A DNA stretch of 64,000 bases from Prochlorococcus sp. MIT 1314. Lineage in GTDB: Bacteria; Cyanobacteriota; Cyanobacteriia; PCC-6307; Cyanobiaceae. The notes under the pieces were generated by a model. The model did no database searches and was not told where the DNA came from. It saw only the letters and a list, made by a program, of their open reading frames with translations. The stretch covers positions 806,001 to 870,000 of the forward strand of contig NZ_CP139300.1 of NCBI RefSeq assembly GCF_034093315.1, given 5' to 3'. The position numbers and the translations under genes are program-made. This document shows, one piece after another, positions 3,606 to 53,191 of the stretch; the stretch's first letter is position 1; every line of letters starts with the position of its first letter.

Positions 3606-3741
3606 AATAAAAAAATATTCTTAAGTAAAAATAACTAGTCACAGATTCCATCGTGGATTAAAGAGCAAAAGTCATATCTAAATAAGTATTTATACTTAAC
3701 TAGCTAGTAATTCTTTTTTTCTGCTTATGAAATTCCATTAG

Positions 3742-24780: not shown

Positions 24781-25009
24781 TAAAAAGATGTAATTGTTAA
24801 TAAAAGTAACACAAATATTAACTTATGTAAACCAAAAGGAGATAAATTATCTTTAAAAAGTAATTAGTGATCAATGTGTGGCAATAATGTCAAATTAATT
24901 AGTTGTTTGAAAAATATCGATACTTTAATTGCTCCTTCCAATTAAGCCTATAGATAGATTTGGCATAGTAAGCATTTATACTCACAGTAAGTAATTCTAC
25001 TTATTATCA

Positions 25010-25119
25010 TGTATGTAGCATTTAGGAAGTGCTTAGCTGGTTAACATCAGGAAATCTGAATTTAACTAGGTCGTCATGAGCTTGCAGGTGGGATACTTGC
25101 AAGCTCTTTTAATTTTTTA
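25010..25119 (+). ncRNA. Candidate small RNA with terminator
   Basis: The spacer ends with a clear terminator: GAGCTTGCA (25078-25086) paired with TGCAAGCTC (25098-25106), an 11-base loop, then TTTT-AA-TTTTTT. No ORF on the + strand ends close upstream, so the hairpin probably terminates an independent short transcript. Upstream bases (TTAGGAAGTGCTTAGC...) are less AT-rich than the surroundings. I cannot match it to a named Yfr RNA. Confidence 0.5.
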
Positions 25120-31704: not shown

Positions 31705-31812
31705 TTATCTCTCTCTTCTCCAATAATCCAAAAATAAAAGATTCCTTTTTGGAGAATCTAATGCGTACATTTTCTCATCGAATCTGACAAAAGGGTGATT
31801 AATAGATTTGAT
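31705..31812 (-). pseudogene. Start-less paralog of the 52566 gene
   Basis: The frame reads IKSINHPFVRFDEKMYALDS then a variable part and DYWRRER-stop. It aligns with the 44-residue protein at 52566-52700 (MKFTNSPFAILDKNMNALDY...EEYWVREN). No ATG, GTG or TTG is found at the equivalent start; an internal ATG at 31770 would give only 21 residues. Probably inactivated by loss of its start, or it uses an ATA/ATT codon. It follows a DUF4278 gene, as its paralog does. Confidence 0.5.
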
Positions 31813-31862: not shown

Positions 31863-31964
31863 TTATTTCAAGTAACAGATTCCTCTATAAGTAAGCTTTA
31901 TTGCCTTCTCTTCTTGCTTTTTACAATATACGAAGGACTTTCCATTGAAATACATTTTTACCAT
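31863..31964 (-). CDS. DUF4278-like small protein
   Basis: 33 residues: MVKMYFNGKSFVYCKKQEEK then AIKLTYRGICYLK. The K-L-x-Y-R-G-x-x-Y ending is the core of DUF4278 (a cyanobacterial short motif). A good AAAGGAG site lies 9-10 bases upstream. The paralog at 52756 differs at about a fifth of positions. Both are preceded by the same structured leader. Confidence 0.65.
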   Translation of the reverse strand: MVKMYFNGKSFVYCKKQEEKAIKLTYRGICYLK

Positions 31965-31983
31965 GATGTAGCTCCTTTATTTA

Positions 31984-32075
31984 CTCAAGTCCCCGTCCTA
32001 TAGCTTGATTCGTAATGCGGTCTATCCCATGGTAGATCGGACGATTTTTGTAGTATATGCTACATCCTAGTTTTA
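31984..32075 (-). promoter_or_regulatory. Conserved structured 5' leader of DUF4278 gene (copy A)
   Basis: On the minus strand, the 64 bases at 31984-32047 match 52877-52940 at 59 positions by eye, better than the adjacent coding regions do. Possible pairings kept in both copies: CGTCC with GGACG, CTA with TAG around the variable CCATGGGA/CCATTTGA, and TCAAG with CTTGA flanking the GGACG. Just upstream GTAG-N6-CTAC forms another small hairpin. It looks like a cis-acting RNA element or a small RNA. Confidence 0.6.
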
Positions 32076-32099
32076 AAGTATTTATACTTAGCAGTCAAG

Positions 32100-51701: not shown

Positions 51702-52172
51702 TTATAATTCTGGCTTCTCCTCCTCAACTGGCTTCTCCTCCTCAACCGGCTTCTCTTCTTCAACTGGCTTCTCCTCCTCAACTGGCTTCTCCTCCTCAAC
51801 TGGCTTCTCCTCCTCAACTGGCTTCTCCTCCTCAACTGGCTTCTCCTCCTCAACTGGCTTCTCCTCCTCAACCGGCTTCTCTTCTTCAACTGGCTTCTCC
51901 TCCTCAACCGGCTTCTCTTCTTCAACTGGCTTCTCCTCCTCAACCGGCTTCTCTTCTTCAACTGGCTTCTCCTCCTCAACCGGCTTCTCTTCTTCAACTG
52001 GCTTCTCCTCCTCAACCGGCTTCTCTTCTTCAACTGGCTTCTCCTCCTCAACCGGCTTCTCTTCTTCAACTGGCTTCTCCTCTCCTTCAGAAAACCTTCT
52101 TTTTAAAAATTCAGAAATTTTTTGGAAAAGATGCTTTAGAAATTCAAAAATTTTATACAGGAAGTTTTTCAT
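51702..52172 (-). CDS. Repeat protein with 20 tandem PVEEEK units
   Basis: 156 residues. An amphipathic, basic N-terminal helix pair (MKNFLYKIFEFLKHLF...EFLKRRF) is followed by S-E-G-E-E-K and 20 perfect P-V-E-E-E-K repeats, ending P-E-L. The DNA repeats are 18 bp, in two alternating spellings that form a 36-bp higher unit in the middle. The acidic, Pro-spaced repeat should form a stiff extended rod (TonB-like spacer). A second open frame over the repeat would encode a basic repeat but lacks the organised N terminus. Confidence 0.7.
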   Translation of the reverse strand: MKNFLYKIFEFLKHLFQKISEFLKRRFSEGEEKPVEEEKPVEEEKPVEEEKPVEEEKPVEEEKPVEEEKPVEEEKPVEEEKPVEEEKPVEEEKPVEEEKPVEEEKPVEEEKPVEEEKPVEEEKPVEEEKPVEEEKPVEEEKPVEEEKPVEEEKPEL

Positions 52173-52565: not shown

Positions 52566-52700
52566 TTATTTAAAATCTTCTTTTGTTTGATTATCATTTT
52601 CTCTTACCCAATATTCCTCATATTTTAAATTTATTTTTTGATAATCTAATGCGTTCATATTCTTGTCGAGTATGGCAAAAGGAGAATTAGTAAATTTCAT
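52566..52700 (-). CDS. 44-residue protein following DUF4278
   Basis: MKFTNSPFAILDKNMNALDYQKIN, then YEEYWVRENDNQTKEDFK. Intact relative of the start-less ORF at 31705. Conserved elements: N/H-P-F near the start, A-L-D, and Y-W-x-R-E. It lies 55 bases after the DUF4278 gene on the same strand, presumably in one operon under the conserved leader. Confidence 0.55.
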   Translation of the reverse strand: MKFTNSPFAILDKNMNALDYQKINLKYEEYWVRENDNQTKEDFK

Positions 52701-52755: not shown

Positions 52756-52857
52756 TTATCTCAAGTAACTAGAACCTCTATAATTAAGCTTTATTCTTTT
52801 CTCTTCTTGGCTTTTGCAATATACGAAAGATTTGCCGTTAAAATACATGTTTACCAT
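52756..52857 (-). CDS. DUF4278-like small protein
   Basis: 33 residues: MVNMYFNGKSFVYCKSQEEK then RIKLNYRGSSYLR. Paralog of the 31863 gene with the same core (K-L-x-Y-R-G-x-x-Y-L). Preceded by CTAGGAGC as RBS and the conserved leader. One Cys retained (VYCK). Confidence 0.65.
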   Translation of the reverse strand: MVNMYFNGKSFVYCKSQEEKRIKLNYRGSSYLR

Positions 52858-52876
52858 GATGCAGCTCCTAGGCTTG

Positions 52877-52975
52877 CTCAAGTCCCCGTCCTATGGCTTG
52901 AGTCGTACTGCGGTCTATCAAATGGTAGATCGGACGATTTGGTAGCATTTACTACACTTTATTTATAGAGTATTT
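52877..52975 (-). promoter_or_regulatory. Conserved structured 5' leader of DUF4278 gene (copy B)
   Basis: 52877-52940 matches 31984-32047 at 59 of 64 bases. The pairing sets (CGTCC/GGACG; CTA/TAG; TCAAG/CTTGA) are preserved while loop bases change. Upstream GTAG-N6-CTAC (about 52943-52956) has different inner bases from copy A, but the arms are kept. Confidence 0.6.
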
Positions 52976-53008
52976 ATACTCAGTTGTCAACCCTTAAGAT
53001 TAAAATTC

Positions 53009-53191
53009 TCAGTCGCAATAGACTAAACAATGCTGATTAGTTGGATGTTCTCTACATTCCCTCTTCCAATAGTCTTCAAATAAATGGTTATCTCTATCAA
53101 GATTTCTTGTTATTTCTTCCATTCTGTTTCCAGCATAATTAAATGCTTTTAGGTATCTTGGAAGGATTGTGAATTGATTGAATAGTTTCAT
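53009..53191 (-). CDS. MKL...HC-YCD family small protein
   Basis: 60 residues: MKLFNQFTILPRYLKAFNYAG, a charged helix, and DYWKRECREHPTNQHCLVYCD. Shares start and Cys/His-rich end with the 34940 gene. Two GGAGG sites precede the ATG (near 53196-53200 and 53220-53226 on the minus strand). Possible small metal-binding or disulfide-bonded protein. Confidence 0.73.
   Translation of the reverse strand: MKLFNQFTILPRYLKAFNYAGNRMEEITRNLDRDNHLFEDYWKRECREHPTNQHCLVYCD

Follow-up and report, generated by a model that had tools for sequence, protein, structure and literature searches.

Two Glutamine-II riboswitch leaders, each behind a predicted NtcA-type operator, upstream of 33-aa genes in Prochlorococcus sp. 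MIT 1314

The DNA stretch analysed here (the window: 64,000 nucleotides of Prochlorococcus sp. MIT 1314, contig NZ_CP139300.1, positions 806,001 to 870,000) carries two closely similar leaders on its minus strand. By their match to Rfam family RF01704 both are Glutamine-II riboswitches (Downstream-peptide motif; type 2 glutamine), for which ligand binding is predicted. Each precedes a 33-aa ORF and is itself preceded by a GTAN8TAC box. We consider it very probable that the two are Glutamine-II riboswitches in the 5′ UTR of small nitrogen-surplus genes, where NtcA would block transcription at the box, glutamine would act as an ON switch for translation, and the product would be a restraining peptide. 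The riboswitch itself is of a class with known ligand, structure and direction, and in that respect is already known.

The two leaders, their class and their genes

A sequence-only reading of the window had held that the two leaders resemble each other more than the genes behind them do, and this is borne out: positions 31984-32047 and 52877-52940 (both minus strand) are identical at 59 of 64 positions, versus 83 of 102 for the genes (31863-31964 and 52756-52857), whose 19 differences fall in 8 synonymous and 7 non-synonymous codons. Its suggestion of a cis-regulatory RNA is supported and can be given a class name, both leaders exceeding the RF01704 gathering score of 33 bits in an Rfam scan of the window (52877-52939, E = 8.4e-12; 31984-32046, E = 4.7e-8). 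The ORF begins 19 nt downstream of the aptamer in both copies. The features are listed below, one per line; A1 is the alignment described in the next section, and crystal numbering follows PMC6698751, cited from the available part of its text.

31984..32046, minus: copy 1 (B position) Glutamine-II aptamer, 63 nt; RF01704 46.2 bits, model 1-60/60
32039..32043, minus: copy 1 pseudoknot 5′ strand CGTCC (crystal 1-5); A1, pair counts
31994..31998, minus: copy 1 pseudoknot 3′ strand GGACG (36-40); followed by G (31993), which pairs with C19
32033..32037, minus: copy 1 P1 5′ strand ATCTA; A1, first pair A.C unpaired, then TCTA
32020..32024, minus: copy 1 P1 3′ strand TAGAC; A1, pair counts
32017..32018, minus: copy 1 linking-strand G18-C19; invariant columns, triple and long-range pair at the glutamine site (PMC6698751)
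32002..32009, minus: copy 1 P2 5′ strand ATCAAGCT; A1, outermost pair A.G non-standard
31984..31991, minus: copy 1 P2 3′ strand GACTTGAG; A1, pair counts
32050..32063, minus: copy 1 GTAGCATATACTAC, fitting GTAN8TAC, predicted NtcA-type operator; start predicted at its first G from the Yfr6 analogy
32070..32075, minus: copy 1 -10-like TAAAAC; from sequence, 17 nt after TTGACT, not among the promoter-scan sites
32077..32088, minus: copy 1 spacer palindrome AGTATAAATACT; from sequence
32093..32098, minus: copy 1 -35-like TTGACT; TTGAC here in 31/31 FNG loci
31972..31976, minus: copy 1 Shine-Dalgarno AGGAG; from sequence
31863..31964, minus: copy 1 33-aa FNG peptide MVKMYFNGKSFVYCKKQEEKAIKLTYRGICYLK; translation
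31708..31812, minus: copy 1 second-ORF remnant, ATC for ATG; translation
52877..52939, minus: copy 2 (A position) Glutamine-II aptamer, 63 nt; RF01704 59.3 bits, model 1-60/60
52942..52955, minus: copy 2 GTAGTAAATGCTAC, fitting GTAN8TAC, predicted NtcA-type operator; consensus fit
52962..52967, minus: copy 2 -10 TATAAA; from sequence, 17 nt after TTGACA, column counts
52969..52980, minus: copy 2 spacer palindrome AGTATAAATACT; from sequence
52985..52990, minus: copy 2 -35 TTGACA; from sequence, column counts
52865..52869, minus: copy 2 Shine-Dalgarno AGGAG; from sequence
52756..52857, minus: copy 2 33-aa FNG peptide MVNMYFNGKSFVYCKSQEEKRIKLNYRGSSYLR; translation
52566..52700, minus: copy 2 second cassette ORF, MKFTNSPFAILDKNMNALDYQK..., 44 aa; like the ORF behind 9 other FNG genes

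The whole genome (one contig, 1,704,447 bases) holds six RF01704 matches. At least one is found in every one of 81 genomes of the genus, this one included, and in 28 of 41 genomes drawn from the family, 3 of these 41 belonging to the same genus. We collected 162 loci: all 6 of the genome itself, 80 of 119 genus matches (25 genomes) and 76 family matches from outside the genus. The genus loci comprise all 62 scoring at most 59.3 bits and 18 of the 57 above; the 39 high scorers left out are assumed to be non-FNG, because every FNG locus examined scored at most 59.3. Loci were classed by regular expressions matched to the first ORF, the search for the box covered 60 nt, and one locus that is probably a chance match (L069, 24.9 bits) is retained in the counts. 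Sorted in this way by downstream peptide, the loci fall into FNG (31), YRG (59), MNxL (62), LONG (5) and other (5). The window pair is of the FNG class, with 33 aa and the pattern MV.MYFNGKSFVYC...KL.YRG..Y. FNG loci are present in 22 of 26 genus genomes (own plus 25), twice in 8 of these 22, and in one genome of another genus. Among the matches listed in a genome scan, nearly all records with the FNG pattern are titled Prochlorococcus or Synechococcaceae; the viral sequences scanned gave 0 matches. For one listed match (L190), the contig with the FNG pattern bears the title Crocinitomicaceae MAG and is probably misbinned cyanobacterial DNA.

Over the 31 FNG loci, mean pairwise identity is 95.5% for the aptamer (406 of 465 pairs, equal length only) and 85.6% for the coding sequence (465 pairs). 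Identity by codon position is 96.1% at the first, 88.3% at the second and 72.5% at the third, with mean dN 0.085 and dS 0.794 (409 of 465 pairs computable); judged by this codon-position variation, the 33-aa ORFs look real and under protein constraint. The sequence-only reading had called the genes DUF4278, but neither window peptide matches Pfam DUF4278 (PF14105, curated score 25.3 bits) at E<=1. Two sister peptides of the same genome (L001 and L002) do match it, at 32.7 and 42.2 bits, and a profile comparison of FNG with YRG gives a probability of 80.6 (E 1.3e-5). Among other loci, the L133 peptide aligns to the last 14 positions of PF14105 (14.1 bits, E 0.064) and that of L012 gives no match. 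The window genes appear, on these comparisons, to be related to the two DUF4278-matching sister genes.

A second ORF of the pattern MKFTNSPF.ILDKNM.ALDYQK follows the first in ten FNG loci, copy 2 included; copy 1 retains a remnant in which ATC replaces the ATG of copy 2. A 60-aa ORF immediately upstream of copy 2 (53009-53191, minus) contains YWKRE, like the YW.RE of the second cassette ORF, and the two are possibly related small proteins. Downstream of copy 2 (51702-52172, minus) is a 156-aa ORF, most of which consists of about 20 PVEEEK repeats. Outside the window, the switch stands before a longer protein in L085 (467-796; 109 aa) and in L083, L084, L088 and L122; in these LONG loci the long protein combines a hydrophobic stretch with a VI....TLWS.LG motif that occurs twice. 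One family genome (G118) carries four scattered copies of a single Glutamine-II cassette (L126-L129) with an identical 35-aa peptide.

This genome and four others (G027, G076, G039, G073) have their two FNG copies on one strand at a distance of 16 to 21 kb; in the other three of the eight two-copy genomes (G036, G023, G067) they are on different contigs. As the spacing is common to four other genomes, the pair predates this strain. Of the two copies, copy 1 shows more wear. Its outermost P2 pair, A.G, is the sole non-standard pair there among 31 FNG loci, it alone adds a wobble at the inner end of P2, and its RF01704 score is the lowest of the 31. Its -35 and -10 are weaker (TTGACT and TAAAAC, against TTGACA and TATAAA in copy 2), and its second ORF is without the usual start codon. 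Copy 1 could therefore be a decaying, non-working duplicate, which we judge unlikely: its peptide, Shine-Dalgarno sequence, predicted operator and ligand-site bases are intact, dN between the copies is 0.13 against a dS of 0.94, and a second FNG copy on the same strand, at a distance of 16-20 kb, recurs in the four other genomes.

Aptamer fold, ligand site and the FNG triple swap

The pairings CGTCC/GGACG and TCAAG/CTTGA proposed in the sequence-only reading occur in both copies and interlock as a pseudoknot; they are, respectively, the pseudoknot and helix P2 of the crystal structure. Two points correct the reading: it missed helix P1 (TCTA/TAGA), which lies between the pseudoknot strands, and in copy 1 the outermost P2 pair is A.G. 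In the available text on the crystal structure, the pseudoknot helix is formed by CGUUC at the 5′ end and GAACG. The glutamine site is at C1:G40, adjacent to the G18>G2:C39 triple; C19 and G41 form a pair, and A33 is opposite G42 (PMC6698751).

Alignment A1 contains 27 of the 162 loci, picked for diversity. Columns C1, G2, U3, G18, C19, A33, A38, C39, G40, G41 and G42 are invariant, in both window copies too, so the ligand-site bases C1, G2, G18, C19, C39, G40 and G41, together with A33 and G42, are unchanged in 27 of 27 sequences. Over 19 pairs, 91.2% of cells are paired and 117 cells are changed on both sides (33.6 when shuffled), values reached in 0 of 500 shuffles each. The covariation score is 0.583, versus 0.215 shuffled and at most 0.131 with the partner slid by one to three columns. 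Of the five covariation measures, two fail to rise clearly above the shuffles: the number of doubly changed pairs (15 of 19, equalled by 39 of 500 shuffles) and that of further pair types (33, equalled by 142 of 500). The P2 pair of columns 50/63 is unpaired in 15 of 27 sequences and the P1 pair of columns 10/32 in 10 of 27. Uncompensated breaks in homologous leaders, which the reading had named as what would refute it, were looked for in the 27 relatives and did not refute it: changes in the pairings are compensated there, although the outer P2 break of copy 1 is uncompensated.

A mapping script extended the ligand-site comparison to 161 of the 162 loci (L070 could not be mapped). Its anchors fix G18, C19, A38 and G40-G42, whose counts hold by construction, and leave free bases 1-5, 33, 35 and the A/G choice at 37. 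Among the free bases, C1 with G40 is kept in 159 of the mapped loci, G2 with C39 in 159 and A33 in 161. At one triple the FNG class departs as a whole: A35>G37:C4 is found in 31 of 31 FNG aptamers and G35>A37:U4 in 130 of 130 others. In 13 other loci, pair 5:36 is likewise exchanged, G:C standing in place of C:G. Concerted changes of this kind are expected of a real pseudoknot.

Variants of riboswitch classes are known, and the FNG aptamers might keep the fold while binding a different ligand or responding over a shifted glutamine range. The swap is class-wide, is seen in 0 of the 130 others and lies next to the ligand site; moreover, the backbone of A37 contributes to the water shell of a bound metal (PMC6698751, available text). 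We nonetheless find this possibility quite unlikely, as FNG keeps the bases seen in contact with glutamine in the crystal structure.

Neither folding nor partner-permutation tests found an OFF structure, that is, a way in which the start site is hidden without glutamine. In folding of 142 distinct loci (28 FNG, 56 YRG, 58 MNxL), the start region paired with the aptamer about as much as in shuffled controls: 0.337 versus 0.306 for FNG (above control in 17/28), 0.235 versus 0.212 for YRG (28/56) and 0.232 versus 0.252 for MNxL (21/58). The linker GCAG can pair with a CTGC just 3′ of the Shine-Dalgarno sequence in 28 of 31 FNG loci, the exceptions being copy 1 (L004), L037 and L133, and this pairing might hide the Shine-Dalgarno sequence when glutamine is absent. 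Overall, own linker partners were no better than permuted ones (367 of 2000 as good, with the linker misparsed in some rows, such as L001 and L091); by class, with the same misparsed rows, 88 of 2000 permutations were as good for FNG, 85 for the 57-aa YRG type and 1890 for MNxL.

The GTAN8TAC box and the start of transcription

The GTAG/CTAC element of the sequence-only reading, which had taken it for a hairpin, is present in both copies just upstream of the aptamer. There, GTAGCATATACTAC (copy 1) and GTAGTAAATGCTAC (copy 2) both fit GTAN8TAC, which we take to be the NtcA consensus. Relative to the aptamer, the box is at -16/-17 in 30 of 31 FNG loci and, among YRG loci, at -14 to -20 in 53 of 59. 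Among 153 distinct upstreams of all classes, 96 have a box at -21..-14 (FNG 28/29, YRG 50/56, LONG 3/3, MNxL 12/60, other 3/5), versus 0 to 2 per round (mean 0.45) in twenty rounds of shuffled upstreams. The window as a whole is weakly enriched, with 12 boxes against 7.31 expected, a number reached by 6 of 100 shuffles. Among MNxL loci, GTAN8TAC within 60 nt is absent from those of this genome and its genus (0/35) and present in 20 of 27 from other genera: at -21 in ten, at -31 to -35 in eight and at -14 in two.

The box could still be a conserved RNA hairpin: among 51 distinct 14-mers, position 4/11 is complementary in 45 and 5/10 in 35, the outer letters being fixed by the search pattern and uninformative on this point. 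A palindrome bound by a dimer gives the same symmetry, however, and complementarity at the inner pairs is confined to 14 (6/9) and 12 (7/8) of the 51, while the fourth pair of the would-be stem is T/C in 4. In MNxL loci the box stands at -21 or -31 to -35 in 18 of 20. Given also the fit to the NtcA consensus, a hairpin is very unlikely, and GTAG/CTAC is probably an NtcA-type DNA operator, as predicted from sequence, rather than an RNA element.

A mapped 5′ end is available in a relative. Genome G010, presumably that of MED4 (by its coordinate match with the published Yfr6), has a Glutamine-II match at G010:C1:627894-627956, inside the published Yfr6 coordinates. Its box starts 16 bases upstream of the aptamer with a first G at 627972, which is the published Yfr6 5′ end, so the box covers +1 to +14 in that relative. 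Axmann and others give Yfr6 as complement(627729..627972), 244 nt, with a possible 33-aa ORF from nt 97 (PMC1242208, available text); by coordinates the ORF starts at nt 98, one off. For the window pair, transcription would by analogy start at the first G of the GTAN8TAC box, Yfr6 belonging to the YRG sister class and the pair to FNG.

The promoters of the FNG loci have TTGAC in 31 of 31 and TATAAA in 24 of 31, and an SD-like string is present in 31 of 31. In copy 2, TTGAC and TATAAA are 17 bases apart, which would place the start at the same first G. Promoter and operator identities of copy 1 among FNG loci are low because of a 1-nt shift. A generic promoter scan of the two stretches gave 2 and 3 sites, no more than in shuffles, and the promoters described here are not among them; TATAAA of copy 2 is absent because the scan rule asks for T at the sixth place.

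Yfr6 was first described and named as a non-coding RNA (PMC1242208, available text), and the leader is better conserved than the gene, yet the separate, trans-acting small RNA overlapping the leader that the sequence-only reading also raised is highly improbable and was rejected, since the available text gives Yfr6 as one 244-nt transcript spanning aptamer and 33-aa ORF, the ORF shows the protein constraint set out above, and the single terminator-like pattern in the two scanned stretches (32018-32039) is on the strand opposite to the leader. In the same text Yfr6 RNA is reduced on nitrogen depletion and also responds to light and cold, a signal that the authors call inconstant (PMC1242208). 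The gif and pirA promoters have NtcA sites near the start (PMC8092223, available text).

Several other elements were observed upstream of the switches. In FNG promoters the spacer between -35 and -10 is taken up by a 12-bp palindrome, AGTATAAATACT, which is exact in 24 of 31 and reads AGTAN4TACT in 27 of 31. The palindrome is no match to GTAN8TAC, and the window has one further exact copy, at 3685-3696 (minus). Of the 35 MNNLL-type loci in this genome and its genus (L005, L006 and others related to them, for instance L041-L065), 19 carry AGTAAN3TTACT upstream. In 29 of 53 YRG loci with a GTAN8TAC box there is also a second box, GTAN8AAC, whose centre is 40.5 to 43.5 bases ahead of the presumed start (26 of 50 distinct YRG upstreams, versus 0 or 1 in shuffles). 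It is found in 0 of 16 YRG loci from the genus and own genome, examples elsewhere being L090 and L093, and in 5 of 5 LONG loci (L083-L085, L088, L122). It lies near the NtcA activator position of -41.5 (PMC8092223, available text), so that one gene would have both an activating and a blocking site. Elsewhere in the window, the small RNA Yfr20 (25016-25105, plus, 90.6 bits) has two GTAN8TAC just upstream, at 24968-24981 and 24987-25000.

Proposed mechanism and relation to known systems

In the riboswitch explanation that we favour, transcription would start at, or a few bases from, the first G of the GTAN8TAC box, and NtcA bound there would consequently block the promoter. When nitrogen is short, NtcA would occupy the box; when it is ample, NtcA would leave and the mRNA would be made. 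L-glutamine would then bind in the pseudoknot and stabilise the CGTCC/GGACG helix, and ribosomes would start on the 33-aa peptide of the glutamine-bound leader. The ON direction presumed for the window pair has been reported for a Prochlorococcus aptamer of the class (PMC6316151, available text). The 33-aa peptide may be a distant relative of DUF4278 proteins, which resemble the N-terminus of the glutamine-synthetase inhibitor IF17; our guess is that it probably restrains nitrogen assimilation by protein contact.

The window pair shares with the RF01704 class its length, P1, pseudoknot, P2, long-range C19:G41 and A33.G42, as well as its place before a short ORF, in several copies per genome, in marine picocyanobacteria. 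The FNG swap of one base triple (A35>G37:C4) is the sole difference in kind seen. Weinberg and others (2010) described the motif ahead of ORFs of 17-100 aa and linked it to yfr6 (PMC2864571, available text). Bolay and others (2018) reported type 2 switches as always multi-copy in marine picocyanobacteria and before DUF4278 genes (PMC6316151, available text), with an NtcA motif at PMM1846 (PMC6316151). With this literature on type 2 switches, DUF4278 and the NtcA motif, the finding is already known in kind.

Three systems are close enough for comparison. Yfr6 of Prochlorococcus MED4 and SS120 has the same order of aptamer, GTAN8TAC box and 33-aa ORF, the MED4 locus being the one compared; it encodes a YRG-type peptide in MED4, whereas the window pair is of the FNG type and has a TTGAC(A/T) promoter with the spacer palindrome. 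PMM1846 of MED4 has the same two inputs, a glutamine riboswitch and an NtcA motif, but encodes a 7 kDa protein with DUF4278 (PMC6316151), whereas the window peptides have 33 aa and fall below the Pfam threshold. In Synechocystis, gifB/IF17 and pirA are small regulators repressed by NtcA and made under ample nitrogen (PMC8092223, available text), as is proposed for the window pair. According to the part of the literature available, gifB also has a glutamine riboswitch, but with a type 1 (glnA) aptamer. PirA and the inactivating factors are reported to be absent from marine picocyanobacteria, which counts against the explanation favoured here (PMC8092223, available text).

What this analysis adds is the FNG class, the triple swap and an operator whose near-fixed position recurs across many loci. 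In the available parts of the literature, with Klahn 2018 known via citing works, we found neither this operator position nor an FNG-wide triple swap described, and both may already be published. Tentatively, and with more doubt than conviction, we suggest that the FNG cassette is a distinct two-input nitrogen-surplus switch, with an NtcA operator at +1 to +14 followed by a triple-swapped Glutamine-II aptamer, and that a genome with up to seven would read several glutamine thresholds, each for a different mini-protein.

The useful remainder is the NtcA-type operator, predicted and near-fixed on most YRG and FNG switches, together with the class-specific triple swap. Both bear on the coupling of two nitrogen signals in a photosynthetic cell that is extremely abundant, and also on the role of its tiny peptides.
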